The translations under genes were made by a program, and so were the position numbers. 37,437 nt of DNA from a virus. Shown piece by piece: positions 8,925 through 37,437 of the stretch. The notes below the pieces were generated by a model. The model ran no database searches. It had not been told where the DNA came from and worked only from the letters and a program-made list of their open reading frames with translations. The stretch is from the IMG/VR virus record IMGVR_UViG_3300033155_001978, positions 1 through 37,437 of that record, one strand, 5' to 3'. Within the stretch, counting starts at the first letter, position 1. Each line of letters opens with the position of its first letter.

Positions 8925-9362
8925 ATGACTTGGACATACACCGGCGACCCTAGCGCTAATAATAGGGATGAAGTTAGATTTTTAATTGGTGATACCGATA
9001 ATGCTGATAAAATAGTTCAAGATGAGGAAATTGCATATGCTATCGCTAATGAAGCAAATAATCGTTTAGCAGCAATTCGAATCGTTAGAACTCTAGCTGG
9101 TAAATATGCCAGAAAAGTCGATAAAACAGTTGGTGACCTCAAGATATCATACAGCCAAATCTATAAGCATTATGTTGATTTGGCTACATTTCTTGAGGAG
9201 TCTGATGCTAATTTATATGCTCCAATTGCTTATGCTGGTGGTATAAGTGTATCAGATAAGGACTCTGTGAGGGATAATTCAGATCGTGCTGATCCTATGT
9301 TCACTAAGGGAATGAATGATAACCCATCTAATAATGTAGAGAGTGATAATAATGATTACTGA
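8925..9362 (+). CDS. Head-tail connector (gp6-like adaptor)
   Basis: A 145-residue protein. Its N-terminus (MTWTYTGDPSANNRDEVRFL, then IGDTDNADKIVQDEEI) followed by a helical bundle with LAGKYARKVDKTVGDLKISY is a pattern I know from phage adaptor proteins that dock under the portal. The polar tail (about 105-145) looks disordered. ATG 8925 directly follows the upstream stop; the 3' end overlaps the next gene. The usual partner neck genes appear only about 8.4 kb downstream, at 17797. Confidence 0.75.
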   Translation: MTWTYTGDPSANNRDEVRFLIGDTDNADKIVQDEEIAYAIANEANNRLAAIRIVRTLAGKYARKVDKTVGDLKISYSQIYKHYVDLATFLEESDANLYAPIAYAGGISVSDKDSVRDNSDRADPMFTKGMNDNPSNNVESDNNDY

Positions 9363-10287
9363 CAGGATTGATTCAATTACCAAAGTAGAAGATTTTCGCT
9401 CTATCCTACCAGCCCCAAAGTCAGTAAAAATTGAACTTACTAATAAGTGTAATTACCGGTGCGGATTTTGTGCTTTAAGGACGAGGGATAAACAATTAAA
9501 TACAGATATGGATATCAATTTATATAAACGGATCGTCATGGAAATGGCGGATGCCGGGGTACAAGAGATAGGCGTTTTCTACTTGGGGGAATCATTCATG
9601 TCCCCCGATATTCTAGTAGAGGCTATTCGTTTTACTAAACAGGTTGCTAAAATTCCCTATGTTTTCCTAACATCTAATGCCTCTATTGCTTTCCCTGATA
9701 TGGTATTAAAATGCATGGAGGCAGGGCTTGATTCACTGAAATGGTCTATCAATGCCTCTGATGATGCCCAATTTAAGGAAGTTATGGGTGTTAAGCCAAA
9801 ACTCTATGGTAATGCTTTTGCTAATATGAAAGCTGCATTTGAGATCAGGGGTAATCATAAATGTGGTCTTTATGCTTCTTCTATTAAATATGATGGGGAG
9901 CAGCAGGGAAAAATGGAGGCTTTGCTGGATGAGAAAGTTAGACCCTATATTGATGAACATTATTGGCTACCGCTTTATTCAATGGGTTCTGTAGCCACTC
10001 AAAGAGAGGCAGAACTAGGTTATCGTCCTACTGCCGGTAATCAAGGGCGGTTGGGGCAATTAAGGCCACCTCTTCCTTGTTGGAGCGCGTTCACAGAAGG
10101 TCATGTAAGGGCCGACGGGGGACTTTCCTTATGTTGTTTTGATGCGGATGGACGTTTTGTAGTTGGGGACCTCAAAAAAGAATCTTTCATGGATGCTTGG
10201 AATTCAGAGAAATTTCAGGAGGTTCGAAGGGCTCATTTAAAGAAAGACTTAACCGGGACGGTTTGTGAGAAGTGTGTAGCATACTGA
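9352..10287 (+). CDS. Radical SAM protein with SPASM-like C-terminal domain
   Basis: The chain has the radical SAM iron-sulfur motif CNYRCGFC (CX3CX2C), shortly after IELTNK, and a partial TIM-barrel after it. The C-terminal part has PCWSAF, a CC pair in LSLCCFDADG, and CEKC at the very end, arranged like the extra cluster ligands of SPASM domains. Such enzymes use S-adenosylmethionine radicals to modify peptides, sugars or other substrates; the substrate here is unknown. ATG 9352 gives 311 residues; GTG 9343 adds three. It overlaps the connector gene by about 11 bases, so it is co-translated with virion genes. No precursor-peptide gene is evident beside it. Confidence 0.88.
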   Translation: MITDRIDSITKVEDFRSILPAPKSVKIELTNKCNYRCGFCALRTRDKQLNTDMDINLYKRIVMEMADAGVQEIGVFYLGESFMSPDILVEAIRFTKQVAKIPYVFLTSNASIAFPDMVLKCMEAGLDSLKWSINASDDAQFKEVMGVKPKLYGNAFANMKAAFEIRGNHKCGLYASSIKYDGEQQGKMEALLDEKVRPYIDEHYWLPLYSMGSVATQREAELGYRPTAGNQGRLGQLRPPLPCWSAFTEGHVRADGGLSLCCFDADGRFVVGDLKKESFMDAWNSEKFQEVRRAHLKKDLTGTVCEKCVAY

Positions 10288-10311
10288 TGAACACCATGGT
10301 GGTTGAATAAT

Positions 10312-10875: not shown

Positions 10876-10882
10876 ATGGGGA

Positions 10883-10911
10883 TTGACAAAAATAGGTATG
10901 ATAAATTTTAC
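10883..10911 (+). promoter_or_regulatory. Possible internal promoter before the methyltransferase gene
   Basis: The only sizeable gap in this area (10876-10945) holds a perfect TTGACA at 10883-10888. No good -10 lies at 17 bases (TTTTAC); TATGAT at 10897-10902 is a good -10 but only 8 bases away. The two elements may be coincidental, or one may be read with an activator. AAGGAGCG precedes ATG 10946. Confidence 0.25.
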
Positions 10912-10945
10912 TTGTTAGGTAATTAGCGAATTAAGGAGCGCAAAA

Positions 10946-11551
10946 ATGGGTAATACACATCAAGAAGAGAAAAAGAAGTATGAAAAATGTTGGGACACGG
11001 ATGGGTATAGAATTCATTCCCCCGGTGAAAATAGTCTAAATGCTTTTAAAAAGATTGTTAAACCGTTTGAATTTAGTAGCATAGTAGATTGTGGTAGCGG
11101 CACGGCACGTGCTAGTTTAGCATTGGCAAAAGAGGATTACGGCGTTACGATGTTGGATATTACCAATCAATCGATGGATGATGAGGTTCGGAATAGCATA
11201 TCTAATATGGTAAATCTCAATTTTTTTGAAATCAATTTATGGGATTCACCAGCCATGGTGAGCCACGCCCATGATTATGATTATGCTTATTGTTGTGATG
11301 TGATGGAGCATATCCCAACTGAATATGTAATGGCTACCCTCCAAAATATTATTAACACCTGTAAAAGAGGTGCTTTTTTCTATATCTGTTTGGTACCGGA
11401 CAGTTTTGGTCAAATTATTGGTTCACCTTTACATTTAACAGTAAAACCATTTTTGTGGTGGCGTGATAAACTAGCTGAATTAGGTAATGTCGTCGACGCA
11501 CGGGATTTAATCTCGAATGGCATGTATTATGTAGAAAAGGAGGTGAACTAA
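10946..11551 (+). CDS. Class I SAM-dependent methyltransferase
   Basis: 201 residues with the Rossmann-fold hallmarks: motif I VDCGSGTARA (47-56), an acidic end of strand 2 (MLDI, Asp71), and CDVMEHIP (117-124), the post-strand-4 motif of small-molecule and sugar methyltransferases. It lacks the NPPY or DPPY motif of DNA-base methyltransferases, so a small molecule, sugar or lipid target is more likely than DNA. Its stop shares one base with the start of the sulfotransferase fusion (TAATG), so the two are tightly coupled. Confidence 0.83.
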   Translation: MGNTHQEEKKKYEKCWDTDGYRIHSPGENSLNAFKKIVKPFEFSSIVDCGSGTARASLALAKEDYGVTMLDITNQSMDDEVRNSISNMVNLNFFEINLWDSPAMVSHAHDYDYAYCCDVMEHIPTEYVMATLQNIINTCKRGAFFYICLVPDSFGQIIGSPLHLTVKPFLWWRDKLAELGNVVDARDLISNGMYYVEKEVN

Positions 11552-13035
11552 TGACCCCACAACCAATATTTGTGACGGGTGTGGCCCGTTCTGGTACCTC
11601 CATGGTTGCCCATCTTTTACATGAGTGTGGCGCTTGGTCTGGTACAACTGAACCCGGCAGTTCTGAAAACCTGAATGGATTTTATGAAAATCGTTATTTG
11701 CGTGATGGTCTTATGAAGACTGCATTATCTATGTTGGGTGCGGATCATCTTGGTATACACCCCCTGCCCCCCCATGATATCTCATCGGGCGTTAACCTCA
11801 AATCTCTTGTTGATAGACTACTAGTAGACGATGGTTACTTCGAGATACCTAAGGGGCCTCCGTGGATGTATAAGGATGCTAAACTGCTCCTGATGTGGCG
11901 TGATTGGCATCATTCATACCCAGATGCTACGTGGGTAGTGGTGCGCCGGGATCGCGAAGAGTTGATCGATTCCTGTTGTCGAACCCCCTTTATGAATACC
12001 CCCAAATATGGCCCGCGCGATCGGGAATTCTGGGCAGTATGGGTAGATTGTTATTTAAACCGGATGGAAGCATTGAAGAAATCAAGTGCTAATGTTATCG
12101 AGGTTGATGCAAATGCATTGATCAGGGGTGATATCAGTTCATTTAAGATAGTTGTTGAACAAACTGATGGATTAAGTTGGGACGATCTAAAGGTTAATTC
12201 TGTGATCCAGCCCGAGTTATGGGGGAAAAAGCGTCTTAAGATTAATATGGGTATGAACGCCAATATTGCGGATATTTTAGAAAATGTCCGTGTTAATGTT
12301 AAACGTCAACTACCTCAGGTAAAACCCTATGAAATCAATGATAAACAAAAGATCGCAATTGTTGCTGGCGGCCCATCTCTTAATGACACCCTACCTGAAT
12401 TACGTCGACAAGTTGAGGAAGAGGGTTATATGTTGGTGGCAGTTAATAATACACATGATTGGTTGGTAGAAAGAGGGTTTAAGCCGTCTGTGCATGTAAT
12501 GGTAGACGCTAGGCAGCATAATGTTAGATTTGTGCAAAACCCAATCGATACATGTAAATATTTAATGGCATCTCAATGCCACCCTGATGTATTTGATGCA
12601 CTGGAAGGTCAGAACGTTCAAATTTTCCATGTTTTAAATGAGATGGGGGAGAAAGAAATATTAGATAATCATTATTTTGGTAAGTATTATTTCGTAGTTG
12701 GTGGATCAACAGTAGTTCTTAGAACTATTTGGATGATGAGAATGCTGGGTTTCAAAAAAATGGAAGTATATGGGTTTGATTCTTGTTACATGGGGGGTGA
12801 ACACCATGCATACAACCAAATAGAAAATGATGAATGTGAAGTACATGATTTAGTATGTATGGGAAAAACGTTTAAGTGCGCTGCATGGATGGCCAGTCAA
12901 TTTGAAGATTTTCAACGGTTTATCATATCTTTAGGTGACAAATTTGAATTAAATGTTCATGGTAATGGATTAATCGCACATATGATGAAAGAAGGTGCTA
13001 AACTTAGCGAAAAATTAACCATAGGAGGTAATTAA
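11551..13035 (+). CDS. Sulfotransferase-like + DUF115 (Maf/MptE-like) fusion
   Basis: 494 residues in two parts. Residues 1-230 look like a PAPS-dependent sulfotransferase: FVTGVARSGTSMV (7-19) is the 5'-phosphosulfate loop, and WVVVRRDREELIDSCCR (128-144) resembles the 3'-phosphate site. Residues 255-490 look like DUF115, the domain of flagellin glycosylation (Maf) and MptE-like proteins: VAGGPSL (271-277), VMVDA (317-321), GGSTVVLRT (384-392) and VYGFD (406-410). The join suggests one chain both transfers and sulfates a glycan, but activity is unproven. AAGGAGGTG lies just before ATG 11551. Confidence 0.8.
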   Translation: MTPQPIFVTGVARSGTSMVAHLLHECGAWSGTTEPGSSENLNGFYENRYLRDGLMKTALSMLGADHLGIHPLPPHDISSGVNLKSLVDRLLVDDGYFEIPKGPPWMYKDAKLLLMWRDWHHSYPDATWVVVRRDREELIDSCCRTPFMNTPKYGPRDREFWAVWVDCYLNRMEALKKSSANVIEVDANALIRGDISSFKIVVEQTDGLSWDDLKVNSVIQPELWGKKRLKINMGMNANIADILENVRVNVKRQLPQVKPYEINDKQKIAIVAGGPSLNDTLPELRRQVEEEGYMLVAVNNTHDWLVERGFKPSVHVMVDARQHNVRFVQNPIDTCKYLMASQCHPDVFDALEGQNVQIFHVLNEMGEKEILDNHYFGKYYFVVGGSTVVLRTIWMMRMLGFKKMEVYGFDSCYMGGEHHAYNQIENDECEVHDLVCMGKTFKCAAWMASQFEDFQRFIISLGDKFELNVHGNGLIAHMMKEGAKLSEKLTIGGN

Positions 13036-14051: not shown

Positions 14052-14503
14052 CATTTAACCAGCTTCTGAAAGCAACACCCAATATCCGGGCAATCGGTAT
14101 ACAGGTACTAAGAAGTTGGGGCTACACGGATCGAGAGGCAGAGCAGGAAGCGTTGATCGCTTTGTGGGACGTTTCGAGGGAAGATAAACAGCCGAAAAAT
14201 GTTAGTGCCTACATCCGGGTTACATTAAAGAATGCAGAGATAGATAGAACTAGAAAACTACAGTCAAGAATGGAAGTTGTGGGGATTACTGACGAACCGT
14301 TTGAGAAGGAGCAACAATTCAATCTAATCTGGTTTTTTATGCTTACGGAAAATATCACACACAAACATCGCAGGCTTTTGTTCCAGTCATATGTGCTTAG
14401 ATATAGTGGGCCTGAACTCGCGAAGAAATACGGGGTCGCGCTAGGAACAATAAAATCCAGACTTAACAGGATTTGTAGACGGGTAATGGGGGCGTGCAGA
14501 TGA
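14036..14503 (+). CDS. ECF-like RNA polymerase sigma factor
   Basis: 155 residues with a two-domain sigma layout. A region 2-like part (about 32-75: YTDREAEQEALIALWD, then NVSAYIRVTLKNAEIDRTRK) would bind core polymerase and the -10 element. A region 4-like helix-turn-helix (about 118-152: YSGPELAKKYGVALGTIKSR) would bind the -35 element. It could direct transcription of phage late genes or host genes. The start appears to be TTG 14036, 15 bases inside the preceding gene, with GGTGG upstream; the rare start suggests low expression. No anti-sigma gene is visible. Confidence 0.75.
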   Translation: MCTNLTFNQLLKATPNIRAIGIQVLRSWGYTDREAEQEALIALWDVSREDKQPKNVSAYIRVTLKNAEIDRTRKLQSRMEVVGITDEPFEKEQQFNLIWFFMLTENITHKHRRLLFQSYVLRYSGPELAKKYGVALGTIKSRLNRICRRVMGACR

Positions 14504-16307: not shown

Positions 16308-17432
16308 ATGGCCGATGTAATCCTAATCCCTAGTGTCGGCTACTATGAAGTTGCTGATGATGGTAATGAATACCTAATTCCTGGGGGTGGGTATTTTAAT
16401 GAGGCATCACCTGCTGGTGTATCTATAGAAGTACCAAGTTCTAATTTAATTTTATCAACAACAGCACCAACCGTAGATGTGACATCGGTTGGTATTAGTT
16501 TTGAGGTTCCTGCTGTAAATCTTACTTTAACAACTGTTGCTCCTTCAGTTGGGATAGGTATTAATATACCAGTAGTGAACCTCTCCTTATTAACAACAGC
16601 CCCGACGGTAGTCATTACTGATCATGTAGACATTGAAGTACCTGTTGCTAGTTTGACGCTTTCTACAACAGCCCCGACGGTAGTCATTACTGATCATGTA
16701 GACATTGAAGTACCTGTTACCGATTTAACATTTTTAACAACTGCTCCATCGGTGGAAATTAGTGCTGGTATTGATATTATAATACCAGCTACAAATTTAG
16801 TTTTATCAACGGTTGCACCAGCAGCACTAACCACTGAAAATAGAAATATTGAAGTCCCGGTAGTTAACTTATTATTACCAACTACCGCACCTGTAGTATT
16901 ATTGGGTACAGGTATTGAGACCCCCACAGTTGATTTAGTGTTATCAACAGCGGCCCCAGTTGTATTTACTACGGCCCACGTTAGTATTGATATCCCAGCA
17001 GTTGATTTGATTTTATCAACATCCGCTCCGACAGTTGGTGTTAGCGCTGTTATTGATATTGAGACCCCAACGGTTGATTTAGTTTTATCAACATCTGCTC
17101 CGATAGTTGGCATCGGTATCAATATAGATGTTATCATCCCAGTTGCAGCCCTTAATATTTCAACAACTGCACCTATTGTTTCAGTACCGGTTAATATTAA
17201 TATCGAAATCCCACAAGTTGATTTATTATTATCAACATCTGTTCCAATAATTGGTGAAACTACTACAATAAATTTAGTTATACCAGTAGTTGATTTAATA
17301 TTAAGTACCACTGCGCCGGTAGTTTCAGCTGTTACAGTAGCATACCCAGCTAAAAGTTTAACGTCTACAGAACCGGGCACCGGGTTTATAACTACGCGGT
17401 TAGATCGTACGAAAAATACAGGAATATCATAA
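16308..17432 (+). CDS. Repeat protein with 13 LSTTAPxV-type units
   Basis: 374 residues. After a 37-residue Tyr/Gly-rich N-terminus, 13 units of 22-24 residues follow, with the loose consensus IxIExPxVDLxLSTTAPxV plus a 4-6 residue link. They run to about residue 343 and are followed by a short tail. The extended beta and Pro pattern suggests a fibrous, possibly shaft-like structure. Every unit has a Ser/Thr-Thr/Ser-Ala-Pro core, resembling an O-glycan acceptor site. Two neighbouring units are nearly identical at the DNA level. The same TTAPxV ending recurs in the genes at 31880 and 32212. Confidence 0.7.
   Translation: MADVILIPSVGYYEVADDGNEYLIPGGGYFNEASPAGVSIEVPSSNLILSTTAPTVDVTSVGISFEVPAVNLTLTTVAPSVGIGINIPVVNLSLLTTAPTVVITDHVDIEVPVASLTLSTTAPTVVITDHVDIEVPVTDLTFLTTAPSVEISAGIDIIIPATNLVLSTVAPAALTTENRNIEVPVVNLLLPTTAPVVLLGTGIETPTVDLVLSTAAPVVFTTAHVSIDIPAVDLILSTSAPTVGVSAVIDIETPTVDLVLSTSAPIVGIGINIDVIIPVAALNISTTAPIVSVPVNINIEIPQVDLLLSTSVPIIGETTTINLVIPVVDLILSTTAPVVSAVTVAYPAKSLTSTEPGTGFITTRLDRTKNTGIS
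16593..16718 (+). repeat. Exact 54-bp repeat, 72-bp period
   Basis: Bases 16593-16646 and 16665-16718 are identical over 54 bases, 72 bases (24 codons) apart. They encode the adjacent units ending in TTAPTVVITDHVDIEVPV. Other units are diverged, so this copy is recent, which fits ongoing unit expansion or gene conversion in the repeat protein. Confidence 0.85.
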
Positions 17433-17794
17433 TGGCTGCTATATACACTACACAACAAATGATTGGCGCATATCTTAAAGGTGAAATCCCGCAAGCTTTG
17501 CAAATAAGTTTTAAAAATGATGCTGGGGCTATTTTAGATTTATCGGGGTTCACTGCTCAATTTGAGATAATTAGAATTGATGATGGCGTTGACCCTGGAA
17601 ATCTTGGTCAAGGAGTATCATCTGTACCAACACCTTCTAGTGGTATAACCCAATATGTGTGGCATGAAAATGATCTATTGACAGTCGGTATGTACCGGGG
17701 TATAATGTGGGTTGGGGATGGTACAAACCGGTATGGCTCTGAATTTTTTGAATGGTTTATCCGGGATTCATTAACTACAGTACCGAGTATTTAA
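17432..17794 (+). CDS. Beta-rich structural protein (BppU-N-like?)
   Basis: 120 residues. The segment ALQISFKNDAGAILDLSGFT (about 22-41), then a strand-turn pattern to SEFFEWFIRDS, resembles the N-terminal domain of phage baseplate upper/fibre attachment proteins, though this is a faint likeness. It begins with the TAATG overlap after the repeat protein and abuts the head-closure gene. It may attach the repeat protein to the particle. Confidence 0.5.
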   Translation: MAAIYTTQQMIGAYLKGEIPQALQISFKNDAGAILDLSGFTAQFEIIRIDDGVDPGNLGQGVSSVPTPSSGITQYVWHENDLLTVGMYRGIMWVGDGTNRYGSEFFEWFIRDSLTTVPSI

Positions 17795-18126: not shown

Positions 18127-18509
18127 CAACCATATCTATGGATATTAAAGGGATTAATAAAATTCAATCCCAGATGAAAAGATATGGTGAAATAGCTGAG
18201 GCGGCTCTTACTAAATCTTTAAAAGAGGAGGCGAATGGTATTTTAATACAGAGCAAAGAATTGGTCCCTGTAGCCACTGGTGCATTAAGGGATTCCGGTA
18301 AAGTTACCGGGCCGATTGGTAATGTTATCTCTATTAAATTTGGTGGTGGGAATGTGAATTATGCGGCTGCTGTCCATGAAATAATTGATGCTTGGCACAC
18401 CAATGGTATGGCTAAATTTTTAGAAATACCAGCTAGAAAGGCTATATCTGGGATGAGCAAACGAATTGCAAAGGATATTAAGATAGCCACAAAGAGTCTT
18501 AAAAGATGA
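18123..18509 (+). CDS. HK97 gp10-like neck/tail-completion protein
   Basis: 128 residues with the typical gp10 pattern: helical N-terminal half, then KELVPVATGALRDSGKV (about 39-55), then VNYAAAVHEI near 79-88 and a basic C-terminal helix. These proteins bridge head and tail at the neck. AGGAGG at 18113-18118 and an ATGA overlap support ATG 18123. Confidence 0.8.
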   Translation: MTTISMDIKGINKIQSQMKRYGEIAEAALTKSLKEEANGILIQSKELVPVATGALRDSGKVTGPIGNVISIKFGGGNVNYAAAVHEIIDAWHTNGMAKFLEIPARKAISGMSKRIAKDIKIATKSLKR

Positions 18510-18889
18510 GCATATTAGATGATATTGGTGCTGAATTAACGTCTGATGGCGTAGTTGGTGGGGTAACCGACTGGGTACTTGCTAAATCATATATGCCACC
18601 CACTCCCGATAACGTGATCGCATTATTTGAGACTGGGGGTGACGCCCCTGATCAAACCCCTGGGACTAAATATGAATACCCAACTTTTCAGGTTAGGGTC
18701 CGCGGCAGTAAATTTGGTTATGAGGCTGCTAGAATCAAAATACAGGAGGTGTTCGATAGTTTAAATGATTCTACTATATCAGGCTATATATATGTTTTCC
18801 CTTTACAATCCGGCCCTATCCCATTGGGTTATGACCGAGAAGACAACAGACCGGAGTTATCATGGAACTTCGCAACGATGAAAGGGTAA
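18506..18889 (+). CDS. Tail terminator-like / minor capsid protein
   Basis: 127 residues. Placement after gp10, an N-terminal helix (SILDDIGAELTSDGV), a middle EYPTFQVRVRG strand pair, and a C-terminal NRPELSWNF resemble the phage tail terminator (minor capsid protein type) that caps the head-proximal end of the tube. It overlaps its neighbour by ATGA at 18506. Its 3' end overlaps the next gene by 28 bases, an unusually long overlap for a genuinely co-evolved pair, and marks the boundary of an inserted cassette. Confidence 0.7.
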   Translation: MSILDDIGAELTSDGVVGGVTDWVLAKSYMPPTPDNVIALFETGGDAPDQTPGTKYEYPTFQVRVRGSKFGYEAARIKIQEVFDSLNDSTISGYIYVFPLQSGPIPLGYDREDNRPELSWNFATMKG

Positions 18890-19449
18890 TTTATATAGCT
18901 GGTGGTGGCCCGTCTTTAAAAGGTTATGATTGGGACCTTTTAAAGAATAAAAGAATAATCGCCGTTAATAGATCATATGAAGTTATACCACGGGCTGAAG
19001 TAGTATATTTCACAGACAAGAGATTTTTTAATTGGCATAAAAATGGTTTAATAGCACACAGTGGTGTTAAAATAACTGGTGATAAAAATGTTGACCACCC
19101 TGATATACAAAATTATAAATTAACTGGGTGTAAAGGAATTGATTTAGGTCATATGCAATTAAAACATGGTAATAATTCTGGTTATGCAGCTATGAATTTA
19201 GCGGTTCATCTCGGGGCTAGAATAATAGTTTTACTCGGATTCGATATGAAATTCAATGGAAAAGAGTCTCATTGGCATGATGGATATCCAGTAGCTAGTA
19301 GACCCAAACAATATAAAAATATGCTACCGTGTTTTAAATCGATGGCGGAAAAACTGGATAGTATGGGAATTGTGGTATTAAATGCGTGTGAAGATTCAGA
19401 ATTAAAAGAATTTTATAAAACACCTTTAGGTGGGGCTCATTTAATATGA
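18862..19449 (+). CDS. Short DUF115/MptE-like protein
   Basis: 195 residues. The core motifs are YIAGGGPSLKG (11-21), VNRSYE with a following VYFTD (48-52), NNSGYAAMNLAVHLGA (104-119) and LLGFDM (124-129), which also appear, more diverged, in the C-terminal half of the protein at 11551. DUF115-family proteins occur in flagellin-glycosylation (Maf) and sugar-transfer settings. This is the first of six consecutive carbohydrate-related genes. It could be a glycosyltransferase or a nucleotide-sugar-binding partner. Confidence 0.68.
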   Translation: MELRNDERVIYIAGGGPSLKGYDWDLLKNKRIIAVNRSYEVIPRAEVVYFTDKRFFNWHKNGLIAHSGVKITGDKNVDHPDIQNYKLTGCKGIDLGHMQLKHGNNSGYAAMNLAVHLGARIIVLLGFDMKFNGKESHWHDGYPVASRPKQYKNMLPCFKSMAEKLDSMGIVVLNACEDSELKEFYKTPLGGAHLI

Positions 19450-20261
19450 AAGCGTGTAATTTAATAAAACATCGCGATGGATACCCTTGGGGGGAAGTTC
19501 AACAAGGGCTTCGCAACGCAGGATGTGAGTTTGTTTCTCAGTATATTGACGCAGATGTTCTTGTTACATGGCTACCATGGAGTAATTCATCTCACCATCA
19601 TGCTGGAGAATTCCATAAAAGTCAAGATAAATTATGGATTGTAATGGAAAATGGTTATATCCCCCATATTAATGGTCAACGATATTATGCTGTGGATGTC
19701 AATGGTTATAATGGCAATGGTTTGGGGATGGTTATTGATCATTCCTCTGATCGTTGGGATAATTTTAATTTAGCAATTGAACCATGGAAAGAGAATGGCG
19801 AAGCAATATTAGTTATAGGCCAATTTGGCCATCAAGATACTCGTTATTCTATGTCGCGTGATTGGCCAGATGACATAATTACACGACTAAGAAAAATAAC
19901 AGATAGACCAATCATATATCGGCCTAAACCAATAAAATCTAAATTTCCGCAAAATTCTTATGCTAATGTTAATGTTGACAATACCACGCCTCTTATGGAA
20001 CAACTCGATAATGCACATGCTATTGTAACTTGGAACAGTCCTTCAATTACCAATAAAGCATTACTTAAAGGTATTCCTGTATTCATAGATGCCCCGAATT
20101 GTATAGCAAAAAAATTAAGCGCGGGAAGTTTGTTGAATATTGAAGATCCTAAAAAATTACCACGCGAACAATTTTTTTACAACCTCGCTTATTTACAATG
20201 GTCCAAGGAAGAAATTAAACAGGGGTTGCCATTTAAATTATTACAAAAGGGGGGTTATTGA
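19446..20261 (+). CDS. GT-B-like glycosyltransferase, paralogue 1
   Basis: 271 residues. The C-terminal half has IIYRPKP (156-162) and VTWNSPSITNKALLKGIP (194-211), which resembles the C-terminal sugar-nucleotide domain of capsule glycosyltransferases of the KpsC/KpsS kind. It ends with an LAYLQWSKEEIKQG-type motif also seen in the next two genes. The N-terminal half is diverged. The ATGA overlap with the upstream gene shows coupling. The family call is tentative; no acceptor is known. Confidence 0.6.
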   Translation: MKACNLIKHRDGYPWGEVQQGLRNAGCEFVSQYIDADVLVTWLPWSNSSHHHAGEFHKSQDKLWIVMENGYIPHINGQRYYAVDVNGYNGNGLGMVIDHSSDRWDNFNLAIEPWKENGEAILVIGQFGHQDTRYSMSRDWPDDIITRLRKITDRPIIYRPKPIKSKFPQNSYANVNVDNTTPLMEQLDNAHAIVTWNSPSITNKALLKGIPVFIDAPNCIAKKLSAGSLLNIEDPKKLPREQFFYNLAYLQWSKEEIKQGLPFKLLQKGGY

Positions 20262-20262
20262 A

Positions 20263-21114
20263 ATGCATGCGATAATTTATCAAGGTGATGGGAAAAGATC
20301 ACATGAGGTATGTACAGCATGGCGGGCAGGACTTATTAATCGCGGTATCAGTCATCGTGTAAAATCTGTAAATGGGTGGGGCGGTGGGATAGAAGCTGAT
20401 ATTGCCATATTTTATGGACTTAAAGATAAATTAAGAAAAATTCAACGCACATATTCTAAGTGTAAAGATGCGCATGCAGTTTTCATTGATCTCGGTTATT
20501 GGGGAAGAACGGAAGGAGGTCAATTAGAAGGATACCACCGAATAGCTGTAGATTCTCTTCATGCCAGTGATTATTTCCAAAACATAAAACATGGAACCGA
20601 TCGTGTGCAACGATTTAATATCACCCCCTGTCCGATGAAGAAAAATGAAGAAGGCCATATTTTATTATGTGGGCAATCTGAAAAGGCAGCATGGGTATTC
20701 GGCCTTGCCCCCGAAGAATGGGAACAAAATGCTATCGCAACTTTAAAAGGATATACATCTCGACAAATTATTTATCGTCCAAAACCTTCTTGGCCGGGGG
20801 CTGGTCCAATTGATGGGACAACATATTCACCCCCCGAACAGGAATTAGAAGAGGTACTCGATAGTGCATGGGCGGTGGTAACACACCATAGTAACGTTGG
20901 GATCGATGCTTTGGTTAAAGGAATCCCTTCTTTCACATTAGAAGGTTTAGCAAAACCTTTATCTAAGATGGGTTTAAAGGATATTGAACATCCATTATAT
21001 CCATCAAGTGAAATACGCCAACAATTATTTAATGATGTGGCATACACGCAATGGAGTATGCCTGAAATTCGTTCTGGATTGGCGTGGGATTATTTAATTA
21101 AGGAGGTATTTTAA
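20263..21114 (+). CDS. GT-B-like glycosyltransferase, paralogue 2
   Basis: 283 residues from ATG 20263, which follows a purine-rich GGGGGG ribosome site; longer upstream starts would overlap the previous gene for more than 100 bases and are unlikely. The C-terminal half has IIYRPKP (169-175), VTHHSNVGIDALVKGIP (206-222), and ends VAYTQWSMPEIRSG. These match its neighbours on both sides, so the three genes arose by tandem duplication. The N-terminal halves differ, suggesting different acceptors or partners. Confidence 0.6.
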   Translation: MHAIIYQGDGKRSHEVCTAWRAGLINRGISHRVKSVNGWGGGIEADIAIFYGLKDKLRKIQRTYSKCKDAHAVFIDLGYWGRTEGGQLEGYHRIAVDSLHASDYFQNIKHGTDRVQRFNITPCPMKKNEEGHILLCGQSEKAAWVFGLAPEEWEQNAIATLKGYTSRQIIYRPKPSWPGAGPIDGTTYSPPEQELEEVLDSAWAVVTHHSNVGIDALVKGIPSFTLEGLAKPLSKMGLKDIEHPLYPSSEIRQQLFNDVAYTQWSMPEIRSGLAWDYLIKEVF

Positions 21115-21115
21115 A

Positions 21116-21982
21116 ATGAAAATTGTTATTTACCGTTCTGATAAACCGCATGAAAGAAATATCGCAGATGACATGCTCAGTGGTGCAGTTATACACGGTT
21201 TTGATTGTGAAATACGACGTATGGCAGATTATGAAGACCCCACGGATGATACAGATATTGCTATGATAATTTCGGTTAAAGGAAAAAGTAAACGTTGTAT
21301 GAATGATCATTTAGCTTGCGGAAAGCATATCATATATGTGGACAAAGGTTATGTACGTTGTAAAGAACAAGGTGCACATAAAACAATGCCACAATTATGG
21401 AGATTTTCAGTAGATGCTTTTCAACCAATGGCATATTTTCAGAAAAAATCAAGACCATCTGATCGCTGGGATGCTCTTGGTATCAGTATGCGCCCACGAT
21501 ATACGGAGGGTGAATATATTTTGTTTGCCGGTAAATCACAAAAATATTGTGATTGGTGGCGATTGGGTGATGCAAATAAATTTGCCGCTAAAATAATTGC
21601 TCGAATTCGCAAATGTACAAAAAAACCGATTATATATCGGCCCAAACCCTCGTTTAAAAATGCCACACCGATTGAAGGGACAATATTTTCTGGCCCAAAT
21701 AAAAAAATATATGCTGAATTAGATCGTGTTCATTGCCTTGTTACCCACGGTAGTAATGCTTCATTAGATGCGATATTTTTCGGTATCCCTGCCATTAGTT
21801 TGGGGGAGTGTATTGCTAATCCAGTAGCTAATGCTGAATTAATAAATCTTAAAAAAGAATTGTTTTTTCCCTCTGAGTCTGAACGGTTACAATGGGCATA
21901 TGATTTAGCATATTGTCAATGGACTTTAGAAGAGTTAAAAAATGGGGAGGCCATGCAATATCTTAAGGAACAATTGTCATGA
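21116..21982 (+). CDS. GT-B-like glycosyltransferase, paralogue 3
   Basis: 288 residues with AGGAGG before ATG 21116. It shares IIYRPKP (172-178), VTHGSNASLDAIFFGIP (209-225) and LAYCQWTLEELKNG at the end with the two upstream genes. Paralogues 2 and 3 are most alike in the stretch after IIYRPKP (PSWPGAGPIDGT against PSFKNATPIEGT). The stop overlaps the next start (ATGA). The cassette thus has three related putative sugar transferases in a row. Confidence 0.6.
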   Translation: MKIVIYRSDKPHERNIADDMLSGAVIHGFDCEIRRMADYEDPTDDTDIAMIISVKGKSKRCMNDHLACGKHIIYVDKGYVRCKEQGAHKTMPQLWRFSVDAFQPMAYFQKKSRPSDRWDALGISMRPRYTEGEYILFAGKSQKYCDWWRLGDANKFAAKIIARIRKCTKKPIIYRPKPSFKNATPIEGTIFSGPNKKIYAELDRVHCLVTHGSNASLDAIFFGIPAISLGECIANPVANAELINLKKELFFPSESERLQWAYDLAYCQWTLEELKNGEAMQYLKEQLS

Positions 21983-22779
21983 ATTATACAGTCGTAACAA
22001 GCTTTAGTAAAAAGGGGTTTCATGAGTATGGCCGTAGATTCATAGAGACTTTTAAACAATTTTGGCCCCCCGAAGTATCCCTCATGATATACCACGAGGG
22101 GTCTGATGACCCCATTGTGTTACGACATCATAATGTAAACTTGATAAAATATGTCAAGAACTGCTATACTTTTTTGGGGGAATATTCAGATAACCCATTA
22201 TTTAATGGGGCCTTGGTTAATCAGCCCCTACCATGGAAAAAGAAATGTATAATGGAAGGATATAACTACAGATTTGATATGATAAAGTTTGCTCGAAAAG
22301 TATTTGCTATCGAGGATGCAGCATCAGTTAATAAAACCGGGAAGATGTTCTGGGTAGACGCTGATGTATTAACTTTTGCTAAAATTTCTATTGATTTTTT
22401 AGACAGCCTTCTGCCGAATAATGTCGCTCTCAGCTTTTTAAATCGCCCCGGATCATATAGCGAATGTGGTTTTGTTGGGTATAATTTAAATCACCCAGCC
22501 TGCCACCCCTTTATTTCCGAGTTTGCTGATGTATATAAAAATGGTAAGGTTATAGATTTTGCCGAGTGGCATGATTCATATGTATTTGATAAAATTAGAA
22601 TTTCTAAAAATATTCCGGGTTATGGTATACCATCACCAAATCGCGGTCATATATTTATTAATAGCATCTTAGGTAGTGTTATGGATCATTTAAAAGGCGA
22701 TAGGAAGAAGTCTGGTAGATCCAATGATATAGATTTAACAACGATGCATGAGCATAAATATTGGCAGAGGAAAGTATGA
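21979..22779 (+). CDS. GT-A-like glycosyltransferase with DxD motif
   Basis: 266 residues. WVDADV (125-130) matches the metal-binding DxD site of GT-A nucleotide-sugar transferases. The N-terminal strand (YTVVTSFSKKGFHEYG) and a C-terminal HLKGDRKKSGR are consistent with a sugar-nucleotide fold. It is unlike the GT-B-like genes before it, so the cassette can use at least two fold classes. It overlaps both neighbours by ATGA (stop of 21116 gene; FkbM start at 22776). Confidence 0.72.
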   Translation: MNYTVVTSFSKKGFHEYGRRFIETFKQFWPPEVSLMIYHEGSDDPIVLRHHNVNLIKYVKNCYTFLGEYSDNPLFNGALVNQPLPWKKKCIMEGYNYRFDMIKFARKVFAIEDAASVNKTGKMFWVDADVLTFAKISIDFLDSLLPNNVALSFLNRPGSYSECGFVGYNLNHPACHPFISEFADVYKNGKVIDFAEWHDSYVFDKIRISKNIPGYGIPSPNRGHIFINSILGSVMDHLKGDRKKSGRSNDIDLTTMHEHKYWQRKV

Positions 22780-23414
22780 AACAGCATGGCGGTTTATGGT
22801 TGCCCGATAGCGATCAATATTTTGGTAAAATATTTGAAAAGGAGAATGGTTTTCAGATAGATCGTCTTAATATAGCTTTATCTTATGTGACATCATGGGG
22901 ATATGCTATCGATGGTGGTTCCCACGTGGGAACATGGTCGATTGAGATGGCTAAACAATTTAAGTATGTCTTATCATTTGAACCAGCACCCGACACGTTT
23001 GAATGTTTATGTAGGAATACAAAAGAATTTCTAAATATAGAACAATTTAATGAAGCGCTGGGTGATCGTCAGGGACTTGTAACTTCAATGGATGATATAA
23101 CTAGACCGGGTAATACAGGGTCTAGATTTGTTAAACAAGACCCTAATGGTGAAATCCCAATGGATAGCATTGATAATTTAGATTTACCATCACTGGGATT
23201 ATTGAAATTAGATCTAGAAGGCGCTGAATATTTAGCATTAAAGGGGGCAAAGGAAACGATATGTAGACACAAGCCCGTAGTTTTTGTTGAAATAAAGAAA
23301 GGGATGGCGGAAAGATTTAATAATGATATGTATGCACCATTAAATTTTTTAAAAGAGCTTGGTGCAGAAAAAGTCGATCGCATTAAAAGCGATTATATTT
23401 ATATGTTTAATTAA
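22776..23414 (+). CDS. FkbM-family methyltransferase
   Basis: 212 residues from ATG 22776, with GAGG at 22767-22770 and an ATGA overlap upstream. Motifs are AIDGGSHVGTWS (SAM-binding), SFEPAP (end of strand 2) and LLKLDLEGAEYLALKGA, typical of FkbM/Methyltransf_21 enzymes, which O-methylate sugars, polyketides or sphingolipids. It ends the cassette just before the tail tube gene, and would cap or methylate the glycan built by the preceding enzymes. Confidence 0.85.
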   Translation: MKQHGGLWLPDSDQYFGKIFEKENGFQIDRLNIALSYVTSWGYAIDGGSHVGTWSIEMAKQFKYVLSFEPAPDTFECLCRNTKEFLNIEQFNEALGDRQGLVTSMDDITRPGNTGSRFVKQDPNGEIPMDSIDNLDLPSLGLLKLDLEGAEYLALKGAKETICRHKPVVFVEIKKGMAERFNNDMYAPLNFLKELGAEKVDRIKSDYIYMFN

Positions 23415-23428
23415 TAGAGGAACTGAAA

Positions 23429-23842
23429 ATGGCAGCCAGTAGAGGACGTAATATTTTATTGAAGATCAGTGATGGTACCTCACCGGGTACATTCACCACT
23501 ATTGCAGGATTGCGATCTAAAACTATCACTATCAATAACGAAACTGTTGACATTACCACAAGTGATGATGCCCCGTGGCGTCAATTATTGGGTAATACTG
23601 GTATCCGCTCTGTATCAATGAGTGGTTCTGGTGTATTTCAAGATGATGCTGCTGTGAATGATATTGAAGATTTAGCTATGGATGGTTTAACACAGGAATT
23701 TCAGATGGTATTTGAAAATGGTGATATCATCCAAGGTTTCTTCCAAGTTACGTCATTTGAGTATGGTGGTGAACATACTGCTGAACAAACTTTCAGCGCA
23801 TCATTCGAAAGTTCAGCGAATGTAACATTAATTCGGGCTTAA
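23429..23842 (+). CDS. Major tail (tube) protein
   Basis: 137 residues. The strand pattern GRNILLKISDG, LRSKTITINNETVDITT, FQMVFENGDIIQGFF and SFEYGGEHTAEQTFSASFES is that of the TP901-1-type tail tube protein, which stacks in hexameric rings. Start supported by AGAGG upstream. It is closely similar to the first 133 residues of the protein starting at 26775, so the tube gene has been duplicated with the chaperone and tape measure genes between the copies. Confidence 0.85.
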   Translation: MAASRGRNILLKISDGTSPGTFTTIAGLRSKTITINNETVDITTSDDAPWRQLLGNTGIRSVSMSGSGVFQDDAAVNDIEDLAMDGLTQEFQMVFENGDIIQGFFQVTSFEYGGEHTAEQTFSASFESSANVTLIRA

Positions 23843-24469: not shown

Positions 24470-26775
24470 CCACTAGAGTTGAAGACTTAATTGTTGAATT
24501 AAGAGCTAATATCAAACAATTTACTCAACAGTTTGATAAGGCTAGTAATAAAGTTGAAAAATTCAATAAAAAAACTAAAAAAACTAAAAAAGGTGTCACT
24601 GATGCTTCCAGTGCTCTCAGGGAAATGGCATCATCTGTTGCTATTTTACAAGGGCCATTAGGGCCGATTGCCGGTAGAATTGGTGCCCTTGGCGCGGCAC
24701 TAGGTCGTGTAAACCCCCTTATTTTAGTGGGGGGTTTAGCTTTTGCTGCTTTTACCTTAGCACTCCGCAAAGCTATCTCTATGGGAATTGCCGCTGAAGT
24801 TCAATTACAGCAATTAGAAGGTCAAGTTAAGGCTACTGGCTATGCTGCAGGGTTAACATCCAAACAAATAGATAAGTTTGCGGTGGGTCTTGGTGATGCT
24901 ACACTGACATCAGCAAAAGCGGTTAGAGAAGCATCAGGAATACTACTTACATTTCGATCTATATCAGGTGAAGCTTTTAAGGAAACGCTAAGATTAGCTC
25001 AAGATTTATCACAGGCTGGTTTTGGTTCCCTAAAAACTAATGTGCTTTCTTTAGCTAAAGCTTTAGAAGACCCTGTTAGGGGTATGACCGCTCTTCGTCG
25101 TCAGGGTGTTATATTTTCACAAACTCAAACTGATATTATAAAGAATTTAGTTGCAACTAATCAATTATTTAAAGCACAAGAATTAATATTAGAAGGAGTA
25201 GCTAAACAGGTCGGCGGGACGGGTTTAGCAGCATCTCAAAAAACATTAGCTGGTTCCCTCGATACAATGAATGAGAGAATGAGTAAATTCACTGAACAAG
25301 TGATAAAGAATAGTGGTGCCCTTGGATCCCTTAAATCCGTATCTGATTCTATTAATGCAGGCTTAAAATCACTAATCGGTAGTACCAAAGCATATTCCGA
25401 TCTCAGCCTCGAAGAATTGGTCGGTCAGCATAGGATGGTGACTTTTCAGCTGGCGGAACAAAGGAAAGCCTTTACAGAAGCAAACTTTTTAACTAGAACT
25501 GGTATCAGTAATGATTTTAAAAAATCCAAAGCTATGGAGGAGGCTCTTAGAAAAGAAATCAAACTTAGAAGAGAGTTGAGAAAACTAGCAGCGGAAGGTC
25601 CTAAAAAAGTAAAAGCGCAAAGAAAAGTAGATGAAGACGTAGCTGCGGCGAATAAAATAAAAGAAGCGAACGATAAATTTCAGGCTTCTTTAGAAAAACA
25701 AATTGCTACATTAGGTAATACCAATGTTCAGATATTGCAGTATAAGGCATCGTTGTTATCCCTAAGTGGCCCACAAAAAGAAGTCATAAATAGGTTAATA
25801 GAAACTATTCAGGCATTTGAAAATCAAAAGGTTGCCTTAAGTGATACTACTAAGGAAATGGCAACCAGTCGACTTGCAGAACTTGATAGATCTATGATGA
25901 ACGAAAAGCAGTTGTTAGCTCTCGGTTACAATGAGCAAACTGCTATAATTACTAATGCTCTTGCTCTTCAAATTATAAATATAACAGCCGCTAAAGCTAA
26001 AATGATAGAATTAGAAGAGGAATACCAAGAAGCCTTGACTAGTATTACCCGCAAAGAAGCTTTAGGAGGTCTCGATCCTGAAACAGTCGCCAGCCGACTT
26101 GCAGCATTAGATGAATCATTATTGAGTGAATTGGATTTACTAGCATTAAATTATAACCAGCGTGTTCAAATAGTTACTGACGCTTTCACCGAACAAGAAT
26201 TGATAGAGGGGGAAGGTAAAGAAAGATTATTACTGCTGGAAGATGAATACCAAAAAAATAAAAATAGAATTACACAAGAGGGTGAAAATACCCGCCGATT
26301 TATGCTAACTGCTGGATTGGGTGCCGCAGCTAACATTTTTAATGCCTTAGCATCATTGTCAGGTAAAGCTGGTGCGAAAATGAATGCTCAACAAAAATTA
26401 TTTGCACGTGCCGGTATAATAGCATCTACTGCGCAGGCTATAATGCTTGCTTTGCATGCTACCCCGTTTTATCCCGTTAATTTAGCTTTAGCTGCGGGTG
26501 CTGCACTCCAGGGTGCCCAACAATTAAGGGTAGTAGGCGGCGGCGGGGGCGGTGGTGGTGGTGGTGGTGGTGGTGCTTCTGTTGCAGCGCCAACCGCCCC
26601 AACAATAGCTGCCCCCACTACTGTGGGTGCGGGCGGGGCGGGGGCGGTTGATCTTAGGATTAATTTAGGTGATGATGATGACTTAATTAGTAAAAGTGCC
26701 ATTCGCCGTTTAATCGATAAGATTAATGATGAAATAGCAGATGGCGCAACTATAGCCAGTATAGGTGTTGCGTAA
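24466..26775 (+). CDS. Tail tape measure protein
   Basis: 769 residues. It starts after the chaperone genes, as usual for the ruler that sets tail length. It has an early coiled-coil region, a long hydrophobic segment near 75-105 (PLILVGGLAFAAFTLALRKA), a mid-region of heptad-like helices (about 380-620), and a second apolar region at 610-690 (ANIFNALASLSGKAG, ending in a 13-Gly tract at 26536-26574 before ASVAAPTAPT). The predicted tail is short, about 115 nm at 1.5 angstrom per residue (inferred). A TAATG overlap joins it to the next gene. Confidence 0.82.
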   Translation: MTTRVEDLIVELRANIKQFTQQFDKASNKVEKFNKKTKKTKKGVTDASSALREMASSVAILQGPLGPIAGRIGALGAALGRVNPLILVGGLAFAAFTLALRKAISMGIAAEVQLQQLEGQVKATGYAAGLTSKQIDKFAVGLGDATLTSAKAVREASGILLTFRSISGEAFKETLRLAQDLSQAGFGSLKTNVLSLAKALEDPVRGMTALRRQGVIFSQTQTDIIKNLVATNQLFKAQELILEGVAKQVGGTGLAASQKTLAGSLDTMNERMSKFTEQVIKNSGALGSLKSVSDSINAGLKSLIGSTKAYSDLSLEELVGQHRMVTFQLAEQRKAFTEANFLTRTGISNDFKKSKAMEEALRKEIKLRRELRKLAAEGPKKVKAQRKVDEDVAAANKIKEANDKFQASLEKQIATLGNTNVQILQYKASLLSLSGPQKEVINRLIETIQAFENQKVALSDTTKEMATSRLAELDRSMMNEKQLLALGYNEQTAIITNALALQIINITAAKAKMIELEEEYQEALTSITRKEALGGLDPETVASRLAALDESLLSELDLLALNYNQRVQIVTDAFTEQELIEGEGKERLLLLEDEYQKNKNRITQEGENTRRFMLTAGLGAAANIFNALASLSGKAGAKMNAQQKLFARAGIIASTAQAIMLALHATPFYPVNLALAAGAALQGAQQLRVVGGGGGGGGGGGGGASVAAPTAPTIAAPTTVGAGGAGAVDLRINLGDDDDLISKSAIRRLIDKINDEIADGATIASIGVA
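26536..26574 (+). repeat. GGN microsatellite (13 glycines) in tape measure gene
   Basis: Thirteen consecutive glycine codons, the last eight or so being GGT repeats. Such tracts can gain or lose codons by slippage; in-frame changes would alter only a flexible linker between the tape measure helices and its C-terminal domain. Confidence 0.8.
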
Positions 26776-28070
26776 TGGCAAAAGGTAGAAATTTGTTATT
26801 ACAAGTTGATATCAGTGGTACGATGACGACTATAGGTGCCTTACGCTCTAAAACTATTACTATCAATAATGAAACAATAGAAATTACAAATCTTGATTCT
26901 AATGATTGGAGAGAACTTAACCCTGATGGATTGGGCACCAGATCGATTTCAGCATCTGGTTCTGGAATATTCACTGGTGATGCAGCGGCGCAATTTATTG
27001 AGGATGCCTGTTATAATAGGAATATCTTATCGATGCAAGTAGTATTTGAAAATGGTGATATTCTTTCCGGTAATTTTGCTATAACTTCCTTTGTTAGGGG
27101 TGGTGAACACACTGCAGAAGAAACTGTGTCGATGTCGTTAGAAGGTTCTGGTGCATTTGTGATGACACGTTTCACAACATGTACCATACCAACGGTGTTT
27201 ACATTTACTGACAGAACTCCATCAACACCGTCTGAAGCGTCCCAATATGACATAGCATTTGACGTTTCAACCGGTACATGGATGATCGCAGCGGTATTAG
27301 TAATGTGGAAATCAACTGATCGATCTACTTGGGTTCCAACAGTATCATTGCCACAAATTATGTCGGCTGATCAAATTACTTATATTGTGGAATCAAATGG
27401 AGCAGGTACATGGATAACCACTTGCACCGACGGTACAACTAACTGGATATTCCGATCTACGGATATCGGTAACACTTGGACTCTTGTAGATACAGTAACC
27501 TCGGTTAATCGTATACGAAACATAACTTATGGTAATGGTGTGTGGGTTGCACCATATATAGGTAATGCCAGGATATCTATCGATGATGGATTAACTTGGG
27601 GTAATACGGGCACGGGCACTGCTGGTGCTTCAGTTGCTACAGACGGGGCTGGGAATTGGACATTAACAACAAATTGGCAAGCTTATTCGTCAGATAATGG
27701 TGTTTCATGGACTCAAGGTTGGCGTAATATTTCAGGTATCATGTTTGGTATGCTTTATGCGAACAATTTATGGGTTGCTGTCGGTAGTCTTGGTCAAATA
27801 CTTACTAGCATTAATGGAGTTACTTGGACTGAGAGACAGGCCCAAAACGAAAAACCCGTATCAGGTAAGCACCATAGAAATATAGCCTATTATGGTACTG
27901 GGTGGATAGCATCGGGTGACTTTGGTATGTATCAAACTTCAGTTGATGGTATAACGTGGTCAAATTTAGGTACATTGGGCCCACAAGTAGCAGCAGTGGA
28001 AGGTAATGATGGTTGCTTAATCATAGCTGATGCAAACAGCTCATCTAGTAAGATTTGGGAAGGAACTTAA
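26775..28070 (+). CDS. Tail-tube-like domain fused to an Asp-box beta-propeller
   Basis: 431 residues. Residues 1-133 are a paralogue of the tube protein at 23429 (LRSKTITINNETIEIT, FENGDILSGNF, GGEHTAEETVSM). Residues 150-431 carry six repeats of the BNR/Asp-box type SxDxGxTW: 179-186, 227-235, 267-275, 305-312, 344-351 and 388-395, which build a propeller like those in sialidases and photosystem assembly factors, often glycan-binding. No catalytic sialidase triad is evident. The protein may cap the tail tip or decorate the tube, presenting a binding domain. Its position after the tape measure fits a tip adaptor. Confidence 0.75.
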   Translation: MAKGRNLLLQVDISGTMTTIGALRSKTITINNETIEITNLDSNDWRELNPDGLGTRSISASGSGIFTGDAAAQFIEDACYNRNILSMQVVFENGDILSGNFAITSFVRGGEHTAEETVSMSLEGSGAFVMTRFTTCTIPTVFTFTDRTPSTPSEASQYDIAFDVSTGTWMIAAVLVMWKSTDRSTWVPTVSLPQIMSADQITYIVESNGAGTWITTCTDGTTNWIFRSTDIGNTWTLVDTVTSVNRIRNITYGNGVWVAPYIGNARISIDDGLTWGNTGTGTAGASVATDGAGNWTLTTNWQAYSSDNGVSWTQGWRNISGIMFGMLYANNLWVAVGSLGQILTSINGVTWTERQAQNEKPVSGKHHRNIAYYGTGWIASGDFGMYQTSVDGITWSNLGTLGPQVAAVEGNDGCLIIADANSSSSKIWEGT

Positions 28071-37434: not shown

Positions 37435-37437
37435 TCG

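Follow-up and report, generated by a model that had tools for sequence, protein, structure and literature searches.

A glycan-gene cassette with KpsC/WbbB-related glycosyltransferases among the structural genes of tailed phages, and its possible role in virion glycosylation

Retaining transferases of Kdo (3-deoxy-D-manno-oct-2-ulosonic acid) are, in three published accounts, marked by a QXXXD nucleophile motif, a (K/R)XHP motif for cytidine monophosphate (CMP) and an acidic general base, the CMP motif being common to Kdo transferases and sialyltransferases (PMC10148158, PMC9587256, PMC12887879). The same work describes a pseudaminic acid transferase as a KpsC homologue of unknown mechanism, so that other donors are possible within this clan. 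Virion glycosylation is already known in mycobacteriophages, where, according to two papers citing Freeman 2023, phage-encoded glycosyltransferases modify capsid and tail-tube proteins (PMC12619734, PMC11256854). Here we describe what may be a variant on it with a new enzyme family at its centre: a cassette of six plus-strand genes, A to F, at positions 18862-23414 of the IMG/VR virus record IMGVR_UViG_3300033155_001978, whose 37,437 nucleotides (nt) are together termed the window. An earlier reading of this DNA from its letters alone (the sequence-only reading) had delimited the cassette at exactly these coordinates, which the open reading frame (ORF) list reproduces. The window is 100% identical to part of G001, a viral contig of 89,264 bases. 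The explanation that we prefer, with somewhat better than even confidence, is that the cassette is a soluble, late-expressed pathway that would decorate a virion protein with an O-methylated glycan, probably of the ulosonic-acid type.

The structural model of D and the sequence profile of the family both indicate that B, C and D share ancestry with KpsC, WbbB and KrkA, which are retaining beta-Kdo transferases. None of the three has a confident match in Pfam, PHROG or NCBIfam, and D is 31% identical to C and 28% to B. The AlphaFold2 model of D (predicted local distance difference test, pLDDT, 95.4; built from a 122-row alignment) retrieved retaining beta-Kdo transferases as all of its first 17 matches in Foldseek. 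In VIA-align it reached Z 14.7 with WbbB (root-mean-square deviation 4.8 over 248 residues), 14.6 with KpsC and 12.3 with KrkA, the next unrelated fold being a uridine diphosphate N-acetylglucosamine 2-epimerase at Z 9.9. The family profile likewise placed KpsC first in the PDB (6mgc, 1.9e-5), and its first nine matches are KpsC or WbbB, four below 0.001 and five at 0.07-0.14. The homology follows from these Z scores and this E-value, and the modified GT-B fold of KpsC and WbbB is recognised from the D model plus the family profile. The three GT-B-like paralogues of the sequence-only reading are thereby confirmed, as is its motif IIYRPKP, found once in each; its second shared motif, VTxxSN, is exact in C and D and is replaced by VTWNSP in B. 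A match of B to HMD_N (PF22616 4.7e-4, under the cut-off; 0.021 in NCBIfam) was discarded as a chance nucleotide-fold match.

Active-site residues were mapped to KpsC through the family-profile alignment. This alignment comprised 195 rows of 217 matches after window repeats and low-coverage rows had been dropped, and was thinned to 119 rows (at most 85% identity) plus the three window rows, 122 altogether; the search patterns were derived from IIYRPK, and relatives with RxHP are under-sampled. The general-base site (Glu66 of KpsC) is acidic in 121 of 122 rows (Asp 81, Glu 40, Asn 1), and the CMP-site Arg is kept in 119 of 122, the Pro of the HP motif in 105 of 121 and the phosphate Ser in 117 of 122. 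The His site of the HP motif is more variable (Lys 68, His 46, Arg 7, Asn 1), and in window B, C and D, which all read RPKP, the His of (K/R)XHP is replaced by Lys. The Gln of QXXXD is present in 54 of 122 rows and the nucleophile Asp in 13, none of them among the 74 rows of the B, C and D clades (13 of the 48 other relatives). At the nucleophile site the window copies of B, C and D have Gln, Ala and Tyr; B has Glu at the base site, C and D have Asp, and B and C keep the QXXXD Gln.

Since the defining nucleophile is absent, we do not class B, C and D as retaining Kdo transferases; by their residues they are most like CMP-sugar transferases of the same clan. Loss of the nucleophile with retention of the base predicts direct, inverting transfer, and B, C and D would thus work by single displacement, not by the covalent double displacement of KpsC. 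The 13 rows with both Q..D and RxH all lie outside the B, C and D clades, and eight of them are stand-alone copies. These stand-alone phage relatives (L044, L046, L053, L055, L068, L074, L076, L083) are possibly true phage beta-Kdo-type transferases, judging from the residues that they retain.

As far as the tree and the gene order allow us to judge, B, C and D are three old clades whose order is kept across divergent phages. Median identity within the clades is 32-37%; B precedes C in 17 of 17 loci having both, and C comes before D in all but one (L027) of 18. The clade lists were copied by hand from a quick-search tree whose only support values are those of the Shimodaira-Hasegawa-like approximate likelihood ratio test (SH-aLRT), and the B and D entries of L021 were left out, its near-twin L022 (93% at the DNA level) standing in. 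Each clade has a signature of its own. In the B clade, whose 18 rows all stand first in the tandem, the base is Glu, Gln is found in 17, the nucleophile Asp is absent, the Arg is kept and 13 rows have His. Among the 25 rows of the C clade the base is Asp in 25/25, the Gln site is Met in 17 and the nucleophile site Ala in 18, with Arg in 23/25, Lys in 25/25 and Ser in 24/25 at the CMP site. In the D clade (31 rows) the base is acidic (Asp) in 31/31, the Gln site is Ser in 21, the nucleophile site is aromatic in 31/31, and the CMP site shows Arg in 31/31, Lys in 24 (Lys or Arg in 30/31) and Ser in 28/31. A catalytic Tyr as replacement nucleophile in the D clade was considered and rejected, as Tyr (27/31) gives way to Phe in three rows and Trp in one and is not universal.

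These signatures bear on whether C and D might have lost catalysis altogether and serve as glycan-binding paralogues or as a scaffold for a complex, with A, B, E and F as the only enzymes. Both the nucleophile and the HP-motif His are gone in these two clades, as such an explanation would expect, but each clade keeps a catalytic-looking set of base, Arg, basic residue and Ser that is specific to it, and we regard dead paralogues as improbable. The pattern looks rather like three old, distinct activities, since spare copies are not expected to hold their order and signatures.

Gene A appears from its profile matches to belong to the GT42/DUF115 sialyltransferase clan. Its PHROG family is annotated as alpha-2,3-sialyltransferase, and matches under the respective cut-offs were found to MptE-like PF01973 (1.8e-6) and to WaaZ, a KdoIII transferase (TIGR04437, 1.4e-5). 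A PDB search with the sequence of A gave nothing useful; the first seven PDB matches of its family profile are an alpha-2,3/8-sialyltransferase, CstII of GT42 (best 2.6e-4). The sequence-only reading had called A a DUF115 (Maf-like) protein. The clan stands, and the Maf-like identity was dropped in favour of GT42 because of the phrog_4603 match and the sialyltransferases that come first in the PDB.

E is, on the basis of its AlphaFold2 model (pLDDT 93.7), a GT-A enzyme. Its best fold scores are effectively tied (BoGT6a Z 15.1, PBCV-1 capsid glycosyltransferase 14.7, GlyE 14.6, glycogenin 14.3), both aspartates of its DxD are invariant in 30 alignment rows, and the motif WVDADV is present as had been noted. 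E has no match in Pfam, PHROG or NCBIfam, and PDB sequence and profile searches with it were uninformative. F is by its profile matches an FkbM methyltransferase (PF05050 1.1e-12, 48.9 bits against a cut-off of 22.7; TIGR01444 1.7e-20, 73.9 bits against 37.7).

Table 1. Coordinates of the cassette genes, their flanks and a second cluster of glycan-type genes in the window (SAM, S-adenosylmethionine; aa, amino acids).
Feature	Position	Strand	Evidence
Radical SAM/SPASM protein, possible second half of glycan system	9343..10287	+	PF04055 7.7e-13; PF13186 9.5e-13
SAM methyltransferase, possible second half	10946..11551	+	PF08242 1.2e-7; homologues inside cassette in other phages
Sulfotransferase fused to MptE-like/DUF115 domain, 494 aa, possible second half	11551..13035	+	PF13469 9.4e-8, PF01973 1.2e-18, above cut-off
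Head-tail connector flank	18506..18889	+	phrog_2595 5e-8; phrog_10344 minor head protein 1e-8
A: GT42/DUF115-clan transferase (from profiles), 195 aa, N-terminal GGGPSL motif	18862..19449	+	phrog_4603 5.2e-37
B: first tandem KpsC/WbbB-clan GT-B paralogue, 271 aa	19446..20261	+	B clade, SH-aLRT 99
C: second tandem GT-B paralogue, 283 aa	20263..21114	+	C clade, SH-aLRT 96
D: third tandem GT-B paralogue, 288 aa	21116..21982	+	model; D clade, SH-aLRT 88
E: GT-A transferase (from model), 266 aa	21979..22779	+	AlphaFold2 model; invariant D127-x-D129
F: FkbM-family SAM methyltransferase (from profiles), 212 aa	22776..23414	+	PF05050, TIGR01444 above cut-off
Tail tube (major tail) protein flank	23429..23842	+	phrog_1407 1.2e-27

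The cassette is tightly packed into its surroundings (Table 1; starts of C and F taken at ATG, the ORF list beginning both at upstream TTGs). The connector gene overlaps A by 28 nt, ATGA overlaps of 4 nt occur at three of the five internal junctions (A/B, D/E, E/F), B/C and C/D are separated by 1-nt gaps, and F lies 14 nt from the tube gene. The structural-operon setting of the sequence-only reading is thus upheld together with its tail-tube flank, whereas its upstream tail terminator proved to be a connector, and its coupling of all genes by ATGA/ATG overlaps fails at B/C and C/D. From the packing, one shared transcript for the cassette is likely. Promoter-like sites occur at chance level (35 found, 35.3 expected). 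A perfect TTGACA-17-TATAAT lies at 17678-17706, inside the gene at 17432-17794 and about 1.2 kb 5' of the cassette, in a promoter scan that as a whole is at chance level. Within the structural module, a small sigma-factor-like protein is encoded at 14036-14503 (phrog_1740 1.4e-4; sigma-70 regions under the Pfam cut-off).

G+C is 0.34-0.40 in the cassette genes against 0.44-0.48 in connector, capsid and terminase genes; as it is near that of other tail genes, composition alone is of little use on origin. Between two close relatives pN/pS, used since dS was saturated in 5/6 pairs, is low (A 0.10, B 0.12, C 0.15), and these values speak for function, as far as substitution patterns can. Taken with the gene order kept across viral loci, they suggest that the cassette is more than a chance assembly.

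Searches with patterns from the family recovered 137 confirmed relatives (178 pattern matches) in 2.9 million viral contigs, of which 79 loci were kept, and five confirmed relatives (99 pattern matches) with nearly the same patterns in contigs of 84,980 species. The tandem type thus looks viral, nearly virus-only, and the clan is also present in bacteria. Among the five, L093, a contig of an alphaproteobacterial metagenome-assembled genome (MAG), is 100% identical to the IMG/VR viral contig L038 over 11,560 bases, and is read as a virus contig binned with that MAG, a possible hint to the host. In L092, four GT-B genes are accompanied by E, H and A, with portal- and protease-like genes alongside. 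The contigs L091 and L095, both shorter than 5 kb, have a single GT-B gene apiece, and in L094, a Hyphomicrobiales contig of 303 kb, the copies retain the Q..D and RxH/KxH residues. A blastn search of the cassette region against phage records gave a single 129-nt match. At the protein level, D matched 14, C 16 and E two of 50,697 annotated phage records, those matched by D and C being Caulobacter phages of the CcrSC kind, Pelagibacter phage Mosig and podovirus MW202713. Members of the family are carried by the cultured phages CcrSC, CcrBL9 and Mosig.

The composition of the cassette varies among phages. In CcrSC a tail-protein gene and a lysozyme gene enclose A, two GT-B genes, H, FkbM and one unknown gene, in that order. 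H is a second GT-A-like gene of other phages (47 ORFs; phrog_28018; a weak Glyco_transf_8 match under the cut-off) that was not found in the window or G001. At L058:4911-6407 and L065:1925-3577, H is fused in frame to a GT-B paralogue, which links H and GT-B as partners. An FAD (flavin adenine dinucleotide)-oxidoreductase-like gene is added in eight cassette loci.

Of 29 cassette loci, 28 have a recognisable head, connector, packaging or tail gene within the retrieved flank of up to 9 kb, a count that includes the near-duplicate pair L015/L016 (93% over 5.4 kb) and L031 by virtue of an adaptor cluster common with L018; the sole locus without one is L032, a contig of 5.4 kb. The first flank set was a shorter, hand-chosen locus list plus the window, repeat-looking contigs being omitted. 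The positions differ widely. The cassette has a connector on one side and the tube on the other in the window, L006 and L024, with only the connector side seen in L015, L041 and L048 and only the tube side in L009, L016 and L047. It adjoins the portal in L021, L023, L026, L040 and L070, and lies upstream of protease or capsid in L019, L023, L027, L030, L033 and L037, downstream of capsid or adaptor genes in L011, L017, L018 and L038, and upstream of terminase (L007, L008), an adaptor gene (L025) or a tape-measure gene (L051). Of the 135 PHROG families matched by 126 flank proteins, 25 were listed, 21 of them with head, packaging, connector or tail functions; the flank scans covered 126 of 224 listed proteins for PHROG and 136 of 290 for Pfam (variant and stand-alone members). 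The cassette hence appears to move as one block that inserts into the virion module, at varied places.

This setting is one ground on which to weigh the main rival view, that late in infection the enzymes act on the host surface, adding Kdo-like or other sugars to lipopolysaccharide (LPS), to capsule or to an undecaprenyl-linked glycan and so blocking superinfection or re-adsorption of released progeny. WaaZ acts on capsule or LPS, and A has a weak match to its profile. KpsC and WbbB are likewise described as acting on capsule or LPS (PMC10148158, PMC9587256), and glycan clusters of jumbo phages have been interpreted in this way by others (PMC7824862). On the other hand, A-F have no clear membrane segment (A peak 1.71) and include no flippase, and the cassette stays close to genes for head, neck and tail in phages that differ in their capsid, portal and terminase families. 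A tyrosine integrase (PF00589), the one integrase type searched for, was found in 2 of 26 cassette records, many of them fragments, and is absent from G001; on this count lysogenic conversion looks unlikely for most. Serotype-conversion clusters of the gtrABC type comprise a membrane flippase and a polytopic transferase and are located in the lysogeny module; no polytopic protein is present among A-F. Action on the host surface is, in our judgement, unlikely, if still deserving of attention.

In the virion pathway that we prefer, A-F would act in the cytoplasm, the compartment in which the virion proteins too are produced, because none has a clear membrane segment (19-residue hydropathy peaks 0.79-1.71). 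Made alongside the virion proteins, they would assemble a short O-methylated oligosaccharide: at least A and B may take a CMP-activated ulosonic or nonulosonic acid (NulO), E may add a sugar from a nucleoside diphosphate sugar, and F may cap the glycan by O-methylation, ending the chain. Host CMP-Kdo, available in Gram-negative hosts, would be the simplest donor, because the synthetase CTP_transf_3 was found in 0 of 26 cassette-bearing records, as against 11 of 14 control genomes. A CMP-sugar made by the phage was dropped for the same reason and because neither NeuB nor CTP_transf_3 is among the 25 listed of the 75 Pfam families matched by 136 proteins neighbouring variant and stand-alone members; epimerases, aminotransferases and CTP_transf_like are among those listed, not resolved by locus. 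Our best guess is a mass shift of Kdo (+220 Da) or NulO type plus methyl groups rather than of hexose type, by analogy with the studied members of the A and B/C/D clans, which use CMP-ulosonic or sialic acids.

The acceptor would be a virion protein, with tube, capsid and the repeat protein at 16308-17432 as candidates. The latter (374 aa, repeats of about 24 residues with 72-nt spacing) has no Pfam or PHROG match, and a different repeat protein occupies the same slot at L041:4186-5790. Its candidacy as a standout Ser/Thr-rich acceptor was rejected, as its Ser+Thr content of 0.22 is equalled by the tube (0.21), a second tube (0.22) and others. This second tail-tube protein, at 26775-28070 (PF06199 3e-26, residues 2-129), has about 300 extra residues with Asp-box motifs of the SxDxGxxW type, three of them strict matches, and no second domain in Pfam.

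Glycosylation of phage DNA by the enzymes is a further rival. Phage glycosyltransferase clusters that hypermodify DNA have reportedly been described (Pyle 2024), and clusters of this type occur with a cytosine C5-methyltransferase and a TET/JBP-type dioxygenase. The methyltransferase (PF00145) is present in 4 of 26 cassette records, but absent from the other 22 and from G001; Tet_JBP (PF12851) was found in none of the 26, nor in any control genome. G001 has a thymidylate-synthase-family gene, which scores above the TIGR03284 cut-off and is an ordinary thymidylate synthase. It also encodes PurZ, and as judged from these Z-genome genes the phage DNA probably carries 2-aminoadenine. We consider glycosylation of DNA very improbable. 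PurZ (NF038379, 5.6e-107, above cut-off) lies at the window end, 37264-37437 (-), and continues into L089:10952-12001; a dATP/dGTP diphosphohydrolase (PF18909 2.7e-26) and a YfbR-like HD phosphohydrolase (PF12917 6.9e-12) are encoded at 36929-37264 (-) and 34486-35073 (-).

Several points count against virion glycosylation as we have set it out. We infer the acceptor, the donor and the activity alike. WaaZ and CstII act on lipid-linked or surface glycans, not proteins. The same is described for KpsC and WbbB (PMC10148158, PMC9587256). The flank count, with its reach of up to 9 kb, is lenient and is not an enrichment or random-placement test, many cassette records are fragments, the CcrSC cassette lies between tail-fibre-region and lysozyme genes, and the Mosig members are among metabolic and hypothetical genes. 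In window B, C and D the HP-motif His has become Lys, and most C and D rows have lost the Gln of QXXXD; these changes could mark a donor shift away from CMP-sugars. Of the three paralogues only D was modelled, and its nucleophile site, like theirs, is placed by profile alignment, not superposed coordinates. Terminator-like sites number 12 against 6.5 in shuffles (standard deviation 2.5), with three on the plus strand within E and F, so that an unbroken single transcript is not assured. The hydropathy peak of A is inside its conserved core and just above the usual cut-off for a membrane segment, 1.6.

The virion as target, as proposed in the sequence-only reading, is accordingly favoured by the structural flanks, the membrane predictions and the rarity of tyrosine integrases, and is weakened by characterised kin that act on LPS or capsule; that interpretation as a whole is partly supported. 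An unusual sugar may cover the particles of cassette-bearing phages. A bolder version is possible, but we hold it only tentatively: B, C and D would be virus-invented single-displacement families derived from covalent-intermediate Kdo transferases, which with a GT42-like partner put an ulosonic-acid, O-methylated coat on phages through a cassette mobile between unrelated virion modules.

A second cluster of glycan-type genes lies at 9343-13035, downstream of the capsid genes (Table 1). A homologue of its radical SAM protein is found at the 3' side of the cassette in L018.

If virion glycosylation is the true function, glycosylated phage particles recur across environmental tailed phages by means of a transferable cassette and are not a mycobacteriophage curiosity. 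The relatives offer a natural series, from those with intact QXXXD/RXHP (13 of 122 rows) to tandem paralogues without it, in which the loss or rebuilding of double displacement can be tested. With CcrSC, CcrBL9 and Mosig in culture, the questions of virion glycans and of mechanism are testable now.

Neither the cassette nor a phage KpsC-like family was found described in the open-licence PubMed Central literature, a search with subscription papers and preprints outside it. Among known systems, GT107 (KpsC), GT99 (WbbB) and GT140 (KrkA) share with the phage paralogues the fold of D, the profile, the acidic base, the Arg and Pro of (K/R)XHP and the phosphate Ser. They differ from the phage enzymes in that the B, C and D clades lack the nucleophile Asp, the His of the HP motif is Lys in the window, and B, C and D are proteins of 271-288 aa in tandem triplets. 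A resembles the GT42/DUF115/WaaZ clan in its matches to phrog_4603 and the alpha-2,3/8-sialyltransferase profile, but is shorter (195 aa) and stays under the PF01973 and TIGR04437 cut-offs. The likeness of E to the major capsid protein glycosyltransferase of PBCV-1 (2p6w, 2p72, 2p73) lies in a GT-A type fold (Z 14.7) and is at fold level only, with 9-10% identity and with BoGT6a, GlyE and glycogenin within 1 Z. As for the mycobacteriophages, the outcome would be of the same kind if the virion is modified here. Maravista has its glycosyltransferase genes near the 3' end of the genome, whereas here the cassette lies within the structural operon and draws on clans of CMP-sugar transferases.

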